From Sphaerochaetaceae bacterium (GTDB lineage: Bacteria; Spirochaetota; Spirochaetia; Sphaerochaetales; Sphaerochaetaceae): a stretch of DNA of 64,000 nt. The stretch is from NCBI GenBank assembly GCA_028532765.1, contig JAQQAR010000008.1:1-64000 (forward strand). The letters are read 5' to 3'. Position numbers and translations under genes: made by a program. Shown here piece after piece: positions 6,357 through 54,539 of the stretch; the first letter of the stretch is position 1, and every line of letters starts with the position of its first letter. Below the pieces are notes generated by a model that had not been told where the DNA came from, searched no databases, and saw nothing but the letters and a program-made list of their open reading frames with translations.

Positions 6357-7424
6357 ATGTATATGGAAACCAATCAACCGGATTTACACGAACTGATACA
6401 AAACTCCGTGACCTCTTCTTCCTTTCAGGAAGAGGGGGACAGACAGGAAAATATTCTTCGCCCAAAATTGTTGAAGGATTTTCAGGGACAACAAAGGCTC
6501 AAGGATAATCTTGCAGTCTTTGTGCAAGCAGCACGGGAGAGAAAGGAGTCATTGGATCATACGTTCCTTATCGGCCCCCCTGGACTGGGGAAGACCACCC
6601 TGGCAAGTATCATCGCAAACGAGATGGAAGCAGAGATCCGGATGACCAGCGCACCTGCCTTGGAGAAACCCAAGGATCTTGCAGGGATTCTTACCAATGT
6701 CACCGAGGGATCTGTTTTCTTTATCGATGAAATTCATCGACTCAAACCTGCTCTTGAAGAGATGTTGTATATTGCTATGGAAGATTTTGAGATCGATTGG
6801 GTCATCGGACAAGGGCCTGCAGCCCGTACGATGAGAATTCCCCTTCCAAAATTCACCTTGGTAGGTGCTACCACCAAAGCAGGTTCTGTATCCAGCCCTC
6901 TCTCCTCACGATTCGGTATTACCTGTCATATTGAGTTCTACAATGAGAAGGAACTGGCAAATATCATCAGGCGGTCTGCCCAGATCATGAATGTACACAT
7001 TGAGGAGGAGGCAATCATTCTCCTTGCACGCTGCAGTAGGGGAACACCCCGTATAGCCAATCGTCTCTTGAGAAGATTGCGGGATTTTGCTGCAGTTATG
7101 GGTGATGGTATTGTCACCACTGCTGTGGTTGACCATGGTATGGAACGGCTCGGGATCGATACCAACGGACTTGAGATGCAGGACCGCAATATACTGCGGA
7201 CCATCATCGAGTTCTATGATGGGGGGCCTGTAGGCGCCGAAACCTTAAGTATCAGTGTTGGAGAGGCAATAGAATCCCTTGAGGATTTCTATGAACCATA
7301 TCTGATCCAGAAAGGATATCTGAAACGAACACCACGTGGCCGTATGACCACTAAACTTGCCTATGAATTGCTGGGTATACCCTGCAAAAGGAATATGGAT
7401 GACAATCAAGGAATTCTCTTTTGA
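6357..7424 (+). CDS. ruvB: Holliday junction branch migration ATPase RuvB
   Basis: A hexameric AAA+ motor that drives branch migration with RuvA. In the 355-residue product the Walker A is GPPGLGKTT, Walker B is FFIDEIHR, sensor I lies in [10 protein letters not shown], and the arginine finger region is SSRFGI. A C-terminal winged helix (about 280-345) binds DNA. The start is ATG 6357; a second ATG two codons on is equally possible. The 3' end overlaps queA by 26 bp, so queA translation is probably coupled. Confidence 0.97.
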
Positions 7425-51085: not shown

Positions 51086-51709
51086 TCAAATTTCAATAAA
51101 TTCCTTTCGATTTATGATCCTGAGTGAAATAAAGTAACTAAGTATCAATAAGCCGAATACCAGTATTCCTGCGAATATGGTAACAGATGCATTATTCTGC
51201 GGGCCTGCTTTTGAAGCAACAGTGGTGAGTGCTGACCCAGCTCCCACGATGAGAAACGTAATCAAAATGTACCACACCCTGCTCTTCTCAAAACCGAATT
51301 TGAGAATAAGTGGATAGTTCAGGGAAATGAAGAATAGCCCAAGCAAAAGCTGAACAGTCAATGCATTGAGTAGTATTTCACCCTCAAAACCATTGAAAAT
51401 AACAGTGGAAACCAAAACCAACAGAATAGAAACGGCTACCGTGAGAAATCCAAACAAATATTTGCTCTGGACTACCGCCTTCCTGGATACAGGGAGTGCA
51501 GAGACATACGCTTCCCAACCATCACTCTGGTCGTAGGCAAACGTGGTAAGGGTGAGCATTACCATCATCATGGTACACATTGCCGTATAGAGGAATCCGC
51601 CCTGTAAACCTGCAAACACTGCAAAGAAAAGAATAATAAACAGTGTGGGCTCAGATTTTCTCTTCAACACATATATATCTTTCAACATCAATGTAATTAC
51701 TGTATTCAT
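51086..51709 (-). CDS. ABC-2 type transporter permease
   Basis: A 207-residue membrane protein with six hydrophobic segments and the pattern of the ABC-2 permease family found with YtrA-type regulators: an N-terminal MLKDIYVLKRK amphipathic stretch, then FAYDQSDGWEAYVSALPVSRKAVVQSKYL between the second and third helix, a family hallmark. It starts within the last 4 bp of the ATPase gene, so the two form one exporter. Substrate unknown; related systems respond to cell-wall antibiotics. Confidence 0.85.
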   Translation of the reverse strand: MNTVITLMLKDIYVLKRKSEPTLFIILFFAVFAGLQGGFLYTAMCTMMMVMLTLTTFAYDQSDGWEAYVSALPVSRKAVVQSKYLFGFLTVAVSILLVLVSTVIFNGFEGEILLNALTVQLLLGLFFISLNYPLILKFGFEKSRVWYILITFLIVGAGSALTTVASKAGPQNNASVTIFAGILVFGLLILSYFISLRIINRKEFIEI

Positions 51710-52557
51710 GACCAGTCCCCCCCAACCGAAAGCATGATGATGATTTGCTCCAAAGTGACACGACAGACCTCACCAAATTGAGGAACATCCTCACTTCTCA
51801 TCAGGAACTCACTCTGGAACTGTCCATCTCTCCTACCCTTTATCGCATTGGGTTCAATATCAGCAATCCTTGTGGAAGGGATCTGTACCAATCTATACCG
51901 TTCAAGCAGTTCATCTTTCTCACTGGATAAACGAATCTTCCCGTCTTCCAGAAATGTCACATAATCGCAGAGCTTCTCCAGATCACTGGTAATATGGCTG
52001 CTGATAAGAATCGTGTGATCCTCATCTTCACTGTAACGGGAGAGCAACGTTATGATCTCATCCCTGCTCACAGGATCCAGTCCGCTGGTTGGCTCATCGA
52101 GAATCAGGAGCTTTGAGCGATGACTCAGTGCAATTGCCAGTTGTACCTTTACTTTCATGCCCCTTGAACACTTCCTATAGGGTTTTTTTGGGTCAAGATG
52201 GAATTGTCTTAGGAGTTGTTGATAGTAAGAAGCATCCCAGTTTGCGTAGAGACCTTGAAACACCCTTCCTAGTTCATTCGGGTTAAGCATGCTTGGAATA
52301 CCAGCATCTTCCACCATGAAGCCTATGGAGTTCCTTGTCTGGTCATCCAATCCAATATTCGTACTGCCAAGAACCGTAACTTCCCCAGCATCCTGTCGCA
52401 ATAGCCCCAGCAGAAGCTTTAGGGTTGTGGTTTTTCCACTTCCATTTGCTCCTATGAGCCCATGCACCGTACCCTGTGCAACAGAGAATTCCTGGTAATC
52501 GAGGGTGAAATTTCCTAGTTGTTTTTTCAAATCCCTGCATATGATAGCCTGTTCCAT
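51706..52557 (-). CDS. ABC transporter ATP-binding protein
   Basis: The ATPase for the adjacent permease. The 283-residue protein has Walker A GANGSGKTT (residues 36-44), signature CSRGMKVKVQLAIAL in a slightly degenerate form (SRGMK), Walker B LLILDEPTSGLD and a HILISSH-type switch region. The C-terminal 60 residues form a non-ATPase extension. ATG 52557 is used because GGGGAG lies 9 nt upstream; an ATG at 52566 overlaps the SD and is unlikely. It begins 1 nt after the GntR gene. Confidence 0.9.
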   Translation of the reverse strand: MEQAIICRDLKKQLGNFTLDYQEFSVAQGTVHGLIGANGSGKTTTLKLLLGLLRQDAGEVTVLGSTNIGLDDQTRNSIGFMVEDAGIPSMLNPNELGRVFQGLYANWDASYYQQLLRQFHLDPKKPYRKCSRGMKVKVQLAIALSHRSKLLILDEPTSGLDPVSRDEIITLLSRYSEDEDHTILISSHITSDLEKLCDYVTFLEDGKIRLSSEKDELLERYRLVQIPSTRIADIEPNAIKGRRDGQFQSEFLMRSEDVPQFGEVCRVTLEQIIIMLSVGGDWS

Positions 52558-52558
52558 C

Positions 52559-52936
52559 TTAAGCATCTCCCCGCTTCAACAATGCATACATCATTCCAAG
52601 TTCATCTTCCCCGAGATCCAAGAAATCTGCGAGCAACATGATTGCCCTCATATGTTCCTCTATTTTTCTCAGGTACTCCTCCTTGATCTGCTCATGATTA
52701 CGGGAGGCTACATAGCTTCCCTTTGCAGCAATGGTCTGGATATATCCTTCCTTCTCCAATTCATCATACGCACGTTTTGTGGTGATGACGCTGATCCTCA
52801 GTTCCTTTGCCAACACCCTGATGGATGGAAGCAACGAACCCTCCTTCAAGACCCCGGAAACAATCTGTGAACGTATTTGTTCTGCAATTTGTGCATAGAT
52901 GGGATCGGGGTTTGCATTCGAAAGAATGATGTCCAA
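52559..52936 (-). CDS. GntR-family regulator, YtrA type
   Basis: A 125-residue winged-helix repressor: DPIYAQIAEQIRSQIVSGVLKEGSLLPSIR and VLAKELRISVITTKRAYDELEKEGYI form the GntR DNA-binding domain (about 8-76), followed by only about 45 residues of dimerisation helices and no effector domain, which is the YtrA plan. Such genes usually repress their own operon with an ABC transporter. AAAGGAG lies 9 nt upstream of a TTG at 52936, which then gives MDIILSNANPDPIY; an ATG at 52960 is in frame but overlaps the likely transcript start. Confidence 0.88.
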   Translation of the reverse strand: MDIILSNANPDPIYAQIAEQIRSQIVSGVLKEGSLLPSIRVLAKELRISVITTKRAYDELEKEGYIQTIAAKGSYVASRNHEQIKEEYLRKIEEHMRAIMLLADFLDLGEDELGMMYALLKRGDA

Positions 52937-52960
52937 GGCTGTTTTCTCCTTTCTGTTCAT

Positions 52961-52992
52961 ATACAGTATATACAGTATGCACTACATGTCAA
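52961..52992 (-). promoter_or_regulatory. Promoter and candidate operator of the GntR-ABC operon
   Basis: On minus, TTGACA (52992-52987) and TATACT (52970-52965) are 16 nt apart. The -10 lies inside two exact tandem copies of ATACAGTAT (plus strand, 52961-52978). Each copy is nearly its own complement, making a good binding site for the GntR dimer. Transcription should start near 52958. Confidence 0.7.
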
Positions 52993-53009
52993 CCACTTTG
53001 GTCTATCGG

Positions 53010-53038
53010 TTCTCAAGATTGTCCGGAATCGTTATACT
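53010..53038 (+). promoter_or_regulatory. Sigma70 promoter of mazG
   Basis: TTCTCA (53010-53015) and TATACT (53033-53038), 17-nt spacer. The -10 ends 7 nt before the ATG at 53046. It is divergent from the GntR promoter, about 20 nt away. Confidence 0.6.
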
Positions 53039-53045
53039 AATGTAT

Positions 53046-53870
53046 ATGATTGACTTCACCTTTGAAAAAAAAGACTTATTACCAGACGCTCTGATGCAGC
53101 TCCATGCCATCGTCACCCTGCTCAGGAGCGAAGAGGGATGTCCATGGGACAGGGAACAAACATCCAAGAGTGTTGCAGAGAACCTGCTTGATGAAACCTA
53201 TGAGTATATCGATGAGGTTAGCAAACAGGATCTCCCTGGACAGAAGGAAGAACTGGGTGATGTACTACTTAATGCAATGATGTTGCTGGAGATCCACGAG
53301 GAACAGGATGATTTTTCTGTTGTTCAGGCACTCAATGATGTCTGTGAAAAGCTCATAAGAAGACACCCCCATGTATTCTCCACTGCTGAAGTCAGTTCCT
53401 CCGGTGAAGTCATTGACCTCTGGAACGCCATCAAGACCAATGTTGAAGGCAAACAGAGCAAGGATGATGATTTTTTCAGCAGGGTGCCCTCCTCCCTACC
53501 CCCTCTCGAAATGGCTAATGAGATCCAGAAGAAAATCCGGAAAGTTGGGTTTGATTGGCCTCATGTAGATGGGGTGGTAGAAAAGGTAGAAGAAGAACTC
53601 AGCGAAGTACTACAGGCAAAAGACCATCAGGATAATGCGGATGAAGACTTGGAAATGGAGCTGGGAGATCTGCTGTTTGCCACCGTCAACCTAACCCGGT
53701 TCCTGGGCTACAATCCCTCAGTTGCCTTGCATCGTTCAAACCAGAAGATGCGTGGTCGTTTCAATGCGCTCTATCAACTGGCAAAGCAAAAAAACGTACC
53801 ATTGGATCAGGAACATCTTGATGAGATGGATCAACTTTGGAAGGAGGTCAAGAGCGAGGAAACCCGCTAG
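53046..53870 (+). CDS. mazG: MazG nucleoside triphosphate pyrophosphohydrolase
   Basis: Hydrolyses NTPs/dNTPs to the monophosphate and pyrophosphate; linked to removal of abnormal nucleotides and, in E. coli, to ppGpp levels. The 274-residue protein has two MazG domains: CPWDREQTSKSVAENLLDETYEYIDEV with EELGDVLLNAMM (first), and KIRKVGFDWPHVDGVVEKVEEELSEV with MELGDLLFATVN (second); both carry the acidic ExxE/ExxD metal ligands. ATG 53046 or 53040; neither has an SD, and the promoter position suggests a leaderless mRNA. mazG and the next gene are 12 nt apart. Confidence 0.93.
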   Translation: MIDFTFEKKDLLPDALMQLHAIVTLLRSEEGCPWDREQTSKSVAENLLDETYEYIDEVSKQDLPGQKEELGDVLLNAMMLLEIHEEQDDFSVVQALNDVCEKLIRRHPHVFSTAEVSSSGEVIDLWNAIKTNVEGKQSKDDDFFSRVPSSLPPLEMANEIQKKIRKVGFDWPHVDGVVEKVEEELSEVLQAKDHQDNADEDLEMELGDLLFATVNLTRFLGYNPSVALHRSNQKMRGRFNALYQLAKQKNVPLDQEHLDEMDQLWKEVKSEETR

Positions 53871-53882
53871 AAGGAATGGCGT

Positions 53883-54539
53883 ATGGATAATACAGCAGAT
53901 AAGAACACTCGTGCAAAGAGAGAACGAAAAAAAGAAGGCGGAGCCATCTACGAGCGAATCGCCTATGATATTGCGAAGAGAATCGCCAATAATGAGATCG
54001 ATGAAGGGACTCGGCTCTCTGGACGTTCACTCATGTCCAGTGAATACGGAGTATCCCCTGAGACCATCAGAAGAGCCTTCGCCCTCCTGGAGGAGCTCGA
54101 GGTGGTTCATGTCATGCACAACAGCGGTGTTCGTGTACTCAGCACAGAGAAAGCAAAGACCTATATCAAGAAACATCACAAGCATGATGAAGGACGATCC
54201 CTGTTGCAAAGAATGAGGGAAATCCTGAACGAGCAGGAGTCCCTGAACCGTGAGCTGTATTCCACCGCAAAACAGCTTTTTACTATGAACAACCGATTCC
54301 GGGAATCCAATCCATTCCCACTCTATGAATACACCATAGCTGAGGAGAGCAAGGCTATCGGGAAAAACCTGGGGGAGCTGCGTTTCTGGCAGGAAACCGG
54401 TGCCACCATCGTAGCCATCCGCAGGGATGGGGTGATCAACCTATCCCCGGGACCGCTTGAACGAATGGTCGCCGGAGATATCCTGATGATGGTGGGGCCA
54501 CACGATTGCCTGAGAAGAACCGAACAACTATTGGATTGA
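53883..54539 (+). CDS. GntR-HTH plus RCK_C (TrkA-C) regulator, BusR-like
   Basis: A 218-residue transcription factor with three parts: a GntR winged helix (about 21-87, IYERIAYDIAKRIANNEIDEG, then MSSEYGVSPETIRRAFALLEE), a coiled coil (about 103-140), and an RCK_C/TrkA-C domain (about 146-218, YTIAEESKAIGKNLGELRFWQETGATIVAIRRDG and VAGDILMMVGPHDCL). This is the architecture of BusR of Streptococcus/Lactococcus, which binds cyclic di-AMP through RCK_C and represses osmolyte uptake. By analogy it may respond to c-di-AMP or another nucleotide. AAGGA precedes the ATG; it probably shares the mazG transcript. The 3' end overlaps the convergent gene by 12 bp. Confidence 0.85.
   Translation: MDNTADKNTRAKRERKKEGGAIYERIAYDIAKRIANNEIDEGTRLSGRSLMSSEYGVSPETIRRAFALLEELEVVHVMHNSGVRVLSTEKAKTYIKKHHKHDEGRSLLQRMREILNEQESLNRELYSTAKQLFTMNNRFRESNPFPLYEYTIAEESKAIGKNLGELRFWQETGATIVAIRRDGVINLSPGPLERMVAGDILMMVGPHDCLRRTEQLLD

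Follow-up and report, generated by a model that had tools for sequence, protein, structure and literature searches.

What does a BusR-type regulator control in a spirochaete when the gene stands beside mazG and not beside a transporter, and does it respond to c-di-AMP? The question is posed by a 218-codon open reading frame in the window, by which we mean the whole 64,000-nucleotide stretch of DNA that was analysed. The source genome is, on sequence grounds, Sphaerochaeta-like: by protein identity, S. halotolerans 4-11 (92%) is the closest named relative, followed by a Sphaerochaeta MAG (87%). The original prediction described a protein with BusR's order of HTH, coiled coil and RCK_C, proposed it as a candidate c-di-AMP sensor, and reasoned that its targets may differ because it lies next to mazG. 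The features of the locus are these:

52962..53870, + strand: mazG (Pfam MazG, E 1.5e-28), with 12 bases between its end and the busR start
53883..54539, + strand: busR-like gene, 218 aa, stop included (open reading frame, phmmer match to BusR 7b5t, family orthologues)
53949..54137, + strand: GntR winged-helix domain (Pfam GntR; residue map)
54177..54296, + strand: long helix, residues 99-138, expected coiled-coil 'ruler' (low-confidence AlphaFold model; alignment position as in BusR)
54321..54533, + strand: RCK_C (TrkA_C) domain, residues 147-217, expected c-di-AMP-binding dimer domain (Pfam; structure matches)
54369..54410, + strand: pocket segment L163-I176 (LGELRFWQETGATI; residue map)
54447..54455, + strand: Pro189-Gly190-Pro191, the PGP of the BusR pocket (27/27 orthologues with RCK_C on the contig)

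The reading frame runs from its ATG at 53883 to 54536, with the stop codon at 54537-54539, and a Shine-Dalgarno-like GAAGGA box lies at 53870-53875, 7 nt upstream of the ATG; mazG and busR are probably co-transcribed. Two Pfam domains score above their curated cut-offs, GntR (PF00392) at residues 23-85 (E 1.3e-9) and TrkA_C/RCK_C (PF02080) at residues 147-217 (E 8.3e-13). Among solved structures, phmmer matches S. agalactiae BusR (7b5t) at full length (E 1.8e-33, residues 22-213) as well as a second GntR/RCK_C structure, 7wjg (E 2e-29), and each of the other matches spans one part of the protein only; the RCK_C region matches the BusR RCK_C with c-di-AMP (7b5u, E 2.3e-14) and S. aureus KtrA (4xtt, E 6.4e-5). 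The helix at 99-138 is predicted in an AlphaFold model of the spirochaete BusR made from a three-sequence input (mean pLDDT 62, pTM 0.39). The Pfam domains and the end-to-end alignment with 7b5t thus bear out the predicted domain order, and the identification of the neighbour as mazG was likewise correct. Of the 139 family genomes, 29 have an orthologue (E <= 8.2e-23), which in two cases is cut off by a contig end. The assignment of the window gene as encoding a spirochaete relative of BusR is supported by homology over the full length, by the order of the domains and by key residues.

Three other identities were weighed and dismissed: a KtrA/TrkA-type potassium subunit, because the protein carries both a GntR domain and the Trp of BusR; a chance pairing of domains, because there are 29 orthologues and the alignment with the BusR structure is end to end; and a trehalose or PhnF-type GntR repressor, because the NCBIfam matches fall far under cut-off and are confined to the HTH. 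We note that the window holds a second GntR regulator, unrelated to busR: a short repressor of 133 aa stands at the head of genes for an ABC ATPase and a membrane protein (51086-52960, - strand), which are divergent from mazG-busR.

The residues named for DNA contact, ligand pocket and autoinhibition in the available text of PMC8517857 were mapped onto the 29 genomes (in the residue table, rows L002 and L003 duplicate L009 and L010, L004 is the window, and RCK_C lies on the contig in 27). Arg48, Arg63, Arg64 and Gly82, which align with the S. agalactiae BusR DNA contacts R38, R53, K54 and G72, are kept in all 29 and Tyr23 in 28; S. agalactiae Lys36 is mostly Ser, and Gly70 mostly Asn, among the spirochaete orthologues. 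In the pocket segment of the window protein Trp169, Ala174, Thr175 and Ile176 are kept as in BusR, G164 and the PGP are also kept, and BusR I153 is L163. Among the 27 orthologues with RCK_C, Trp169 is found in 26, Ala174 in 25, and Thr175 and Ile or Val at 176 in every one. BusR Phe182, the partner of the autoinhibition Trp, is Leu192 in the window protein and varies among orthologues; RCK_C domains of similar structure, KtrA's among them, do not conserve the Trp itself (PMC8517857, available text).

The rim of the pocket differs: BusR V158 becomes Phe168 (Phe in 26/27), H160 becomes Gln170 (Gln in 25/27), and N157, a position that varies among orthologues, becomes Arg167. The two polar residues of the rim, which make hydrogen bonds to c-di-AMP in S. 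agalactiae BusR, are thereby both changed, the Phe-Trp-Gln combination recurs in three BusRs belonging to two other families of spirochaetes, and the BusR of L. lactis is responsive to ionic strength as well (PMC10243994, available text); these points favour the alternative that the BusR architecture and operator are correctly assigned but the RCK_C domain senses ionic strength or a ligand other than c-di-AMP. We consider this unlikely, given that the adenine-recognising core (the positions of BusR A164, T165 and I166, and the PGP) is kept in nearly all orthologues. Moreover, the S. aureus KtrA RCK_C (4xtt), a known c-di-AMP binder, has Ala at the His160 position, so that the fold class can do without this His. 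Binding of c-di-AMP by the window BusR is accordingly rated as no more than likely, the core being kept and the rim residues changed.

As the original prediction advised, the genome was searched for a diadenylate cyclase, and one DAC-domain protein (PF02457, ~275 aa) was found at G000:C40:11387-11737; this predicted cyclase gene supports the view that c-di-AMP would be made in the organism. DAC is present in 135 of the 139 family genomes, the four that lack it (G016, G018, G056 and G060) are all busR-negative, and its presence in all 29 busR-positive genomes also argues against a different ligand. The proposed sensor role is therefore sustained, as a prediction, by the base-recognising core and the cyclase, and not by the two polar rim residues. 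Besides TrkA and KtrA, c-di-AMP may also target a predicted potassium channel that carries TrkA_N and RCK_C (locus L113, G000:C76, 6670-7743).

The target is suggested by relatives of the window genome. Seventeen of the 29 busR neighbourhoods were examined by clustering their open reading frames with those of the window, and mazG adjoins busR in most of them as a conserved upstream neighbour. Directly downstream of busR and on the same strand, 11 of the 17 (G107, G111, G094, G027, G124, G122, G123, G021, G090, G089 and G106) carry an SBP_bac_5-type (Opp/Dpp-type) gene, with the operon's permease in the same stretch in all but G106, where the contig ends. The G094 copy of this operon comprises SBP_bac_5, two BPD permeases (one with OppC_N) and a double ATPase with oligo_HPY (Pfam). 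G101, G091 and G092 match the window in gene order, mazG-busR being followed there too by the convergent gene of the 823-aa type; the G088 contig breaks off behind busR; and two genomes have an OpuC-type betaine operon, ordered ATPase(CBS)-permease-OpuAC-busR in G080 and with busR followed by an OpuAC-permease fusion in G082. The suggestion that a place next to mazG could mean different targets was right in its outcome, and the mazG-busR pair is common to the opp-adjoining relatives as well. The idea that a missing transporter neighbour signals an unrelated function was dropped after the opp neighbourhoods and the operators in relatives had been seen.

An opp operon, called by a permease match at E <= 1e-90, is present in 22 of the 139 genomes. 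Both busR and opp are found in 20, busR only in nine (G080, G082, G091, G092, G097, G100, G101, G102 and G104), opp only in two (G108 and G022, fragmented assemblies in which no busR was found) and neither in 108, a co-occurrence with a Fisher p of 2.8e-15, uncorrected for shared ancestry.

The promoter of the operon carries a bipartite inverted repeat, GMC-N22/23-GTC, that overlaps the -35 and -10; upstream of the binding-protein gene, TTGACA is followed directly by AACYGMCA-N20/21-TGTCGGTT. This predicted operator is present at 21 of 21 examinable opp operon copies, including that of the window genome; in the remaining one of the 22, G022, the contig is cut inside the permease gene. The published BusR operator has the layout GAC-N22-GTC, and binding is lost when the spacing is changed by +5 or -10 bp (PMC8517857, available text); the spacer is mostly 23 in the Sphaerochaetaceae sites, as against 22 in all four experimentally known BusR sites. 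Conservation is about 0.9-1.6 bits per column in the arms and the -35, compared with 0.2-0.3 in the flanks.

A scan with the exact pattern finds the site in eight of the 139 family genomes, all of them busR-positive, with 0 matches to the reversed control. A half-site matrix built from 15 sites (30 half-sites) identifies, in 57 loci, 23 sites of at least 20 bits, all before opp or opu genes, and five weaker matches (14.0-19.2 bits) elsewhere; in a set of 60 loci (709,543 bases), 25 of 25 sites of at least 20 bits precede opp, opu or amino-acid ABC genes, whereas six dinucleotide shuffles of the set gave 0, 0, 0, 1, 0 and 0 such sites. Sites outside the matrix training are those of G080 (before opuCA, 26.8 bits, N22), G082 (before busR-opu, 21.0 bits, N23) and G476, together with the second site of G107. 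In G476 two sites (20.8 bits each, N23) overlap head to tail at 6981-7052 of locus L218, in the gap that separates busR from an SBP_bac_3 amino-acid-type operon; a pair of sites is likewise present at busAB in S. agalactiae. In G107 (locus L096, 1305-5063) two tandem SBP_bac_5-type genes stand behind busR, with a BusR-type site upstream of each.

When any spacing from 7 to 61 was allowed, using a matrix partly trained on the tested sites, the best pair had a spacing of 22 or 23 for 23 of the 26 promoters, compared with 3.8% in shuffles; G089 differs because its called start lies inside the site region, and G476 because its two 23-base sites overlap. Two further repeats fit less well: an intergenic AAC-N23-GTT repeat in G475 is a weak visual match only, and the G391 site (13.1 bits), a longer perfect palindrome with AAC in place of GAC, was left out of the counts.

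One could suppose that the inverted repeat is the operator of a different regulator and busR a bystander. Consistent with this, no convincing site was found in the opp-less busR-positive genomes G091, G092, G101 and G102 (three of the four being single-contig), where matches were fewer than with the reversed-pattern control, and G108 has opp and the site with no busR found. We nevertheless hold the bystander reading to be quite improbable: the same site recurs at unrelated transporter operons of OpuC and amino-acid ABC types whose common neighbour is busR, its layout fits the published BusR ruler, and the exact-pattern scan met no genome lacking busR.

In the window genome the opp operon lies at G000:C80:64747-70016, with SBP_bac_5 (64747-66249), two permeases (to 68041) and a fused double ATPase (to 70016), on a different contig from busR; its permease is 83% identical to the G094 copy. 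Hallmarks of an Opp/Dpp (PepT) ABC importer, namely SBP_bac_5, two BPD permeases and oligo_HPY ATPases, are present in both the G094 and window-genome copies. None of the NCBIfam binding-protein or permease models reaches its cut-off on the window genome's operon, and the nearest solved relatives of the binding protein are one named only 'ABC transporter substrate-binding protein' and YliB/GsiB, which is of peptide type. The target importer is predicted to be of Opp/Dpp type, with peptides as a possible substrate.

The predicted operator of the window genome is a 37-bp site at G000:C80:64580-64616, which counted from its GCC lies 163 bases before the start codon. At 20.7 bits it is weaker than most, and its arms have drifted (AAG/GAT) in this clade. 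In a genome-wide scan of the genus with two mismatches allowed, the site was one match against four control matches, so that its weight rests on position and on recurrence in the close genomes G110, G113, G114, G115, G093, G108 and G109. With a degenerate pattern, itself drawn from these sites and so no independent test, the opp site is the sole 0-mismatch match in each of five close genomes. No site of at least 20 bits was found at the window genome's OpuAC (L114, one such locus being covered), TrkA (L112), KtrA (L115), RCK channel (L113) or cyclase (L111) loci; L114 has one 15.3-bit match, with no counterpart of at least 14 bits in L116 of G113. A near-miss repeat (AAGTGACA...TGTCATAT) at G000:C10:57029-57065 is conserved in G113, G115 and G109 and may be coding.

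The separation of busR from opp, the drift of the operator arms and the retention in close relatives of nothing but the mazG-busR pair could be read to mean that busR, once parted from its target, has become a decaying remnant that regulates nothing in the window species. This strikes us as very improbable, for the reading frame is intact, it shares 87-92% identity with the two nearest named relatives and has all core residues, and the site is present in all eight close opp-positive genomes, G000 and the seven listed above. Nor is an unlinked target unusual in itself, since busR of S. agalactiae lies 655 kb from its target (PMC5919688, available text).

We therefore think it quite likely that the spirochaete BusR represses an Opp-type importer at high c-di-AMP. 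The support observed consists of homology, residue conservation, the presence of a cyclase, a conserved operator with BusR spacing that co-occurs with busR, and the recurrence of that operator where other spirochaete busR genes adjoin operons for betaine or amino-acid transporters. By homology, the protein would be a tetramer whose coiled coil connects two DNA-binding ends; c-di-AMP from the genome's cyclase would bind the RCK_C dimer and release the winged helices, allowing the tetramer to clamp onto a bipartite operator that spans three helical turns. With that operator over the opp promoter, high c-di-AMP (high turgor) would shut off substrate uptake, and low c-di-AMP would reopen the importer. 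Repression is the natural reading because the operator covers the -35 and -10; c-di-AMP binding, DNA binding, repression as opposed to activation, and an osmotic role are inferred. As far as sequence comparison can tell, the genomes of relatives point to a peptide-type importer as the BusR target, instead of or besides a salt-stress importer.

The resemblance to S. agalactiae BusR (7b5t/7b5u/7oz3; PMC8517857, available text) takes in the domain order, the full-length alignment, Trp159, the PGP, the DNA-contact arginines and, as a prediction here, a bipartite GAC-spacer-GTC operator over the -35 and -10. The two differ in target (the BusAB betaine importer there, an Opp-type operon predicted here), in spacer (22 there, mostly 23 in the spirochaete sites) and in residues (His160 to Gln, Asn157 to Arg, Val158 to Phe, Phe182 to Leu, Lys36 to Ser and Gly70 to Asn). 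BusR of L. lactis, the busA repressor, has the same architecture and lies beside its target as in many of the relatives, but it is not from a spirochaete and its targets are a betaine transporter and, by prediction, arsC, hom and thrB (PMC7051946, available text). Control of compatible-solute importers is a property of the BusRs studied and not a defining feature of the protein. KtrA and TrkA (e.g. 4xtt) share the RCK_C fold that binds c-di-AMP but are potassium-channel subunits with no DNA-binding domain and no Trp at the 159 position. DarR (TetR family) and DasR (GntR family) are transcription factors reported to bind c-di-AMP (PMC10636190, PMC11076491), although no RCK_C or coiled-coil ruler is expected in either.

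BusR itself is known; what would be new for this type of regulator is the predicted target class and the phylum. A literature search, with most subscription papers outside its reach and some sources open in part, returned nothing joining Sphaerochaeta with c-di-AMP, no description of a spirochaete BusR and no BusR on an Opp-type promoter. Mutants lacking c-di-AMP gain mutations in oligopeptide permeases in Listeria, S. agalactiae and Borrelia turicatae (PMC8316131, PMC5919688, PMC8549634), and the tie between c-di-AMP and Opp has been called a conserved relationship, with the choice between osmoregulation and amino-acid metabolism left open (PMC8316131), according to the available text of these papers. 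A BusR operator on an Opp-type promoter would, if true, make that link direct, molecular and testable, in free-living spirochaetes with complete genomes, and would offer a mechanism for the suppressor tie in Listeria, group B Streptococcus and Borrelia. It would also represent direct transcriptional control of a peptide-type transporter by c-di-AMP, and would extend BusR control past betaine import and past the Gram-positive groups studied so far.

More broadly, we lean towards viewing the spirochaete BusR as an interchangeable module, in which one operator-promoter cassette serves OpuC-type, amino-acid ABC and, in Sphaerochaetaceae, Opp-type importers. Across the phylum, at least 10 of 392 drawn genomes match a divergent BusR query at 1e-12, a query that is poor for distant members. 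In a genome of another spirochaete family, G391 (locus L216, 6402-12547, - strand), busR closes a run of transporter genes made up of an amino-acid-type ABC, a betaine SBP-permease fusion and a ProV-type ATPase, and a perfect palindrome, AAGTAACAACTT...AAGTTGTTACTT, precedes the first gene of the run. The OpuAC-permease fusions at L107 (6479-8167) and L216 (8266-10215) have the binding domain N-terminal, the reverse of the order in L. lactis BusAB.
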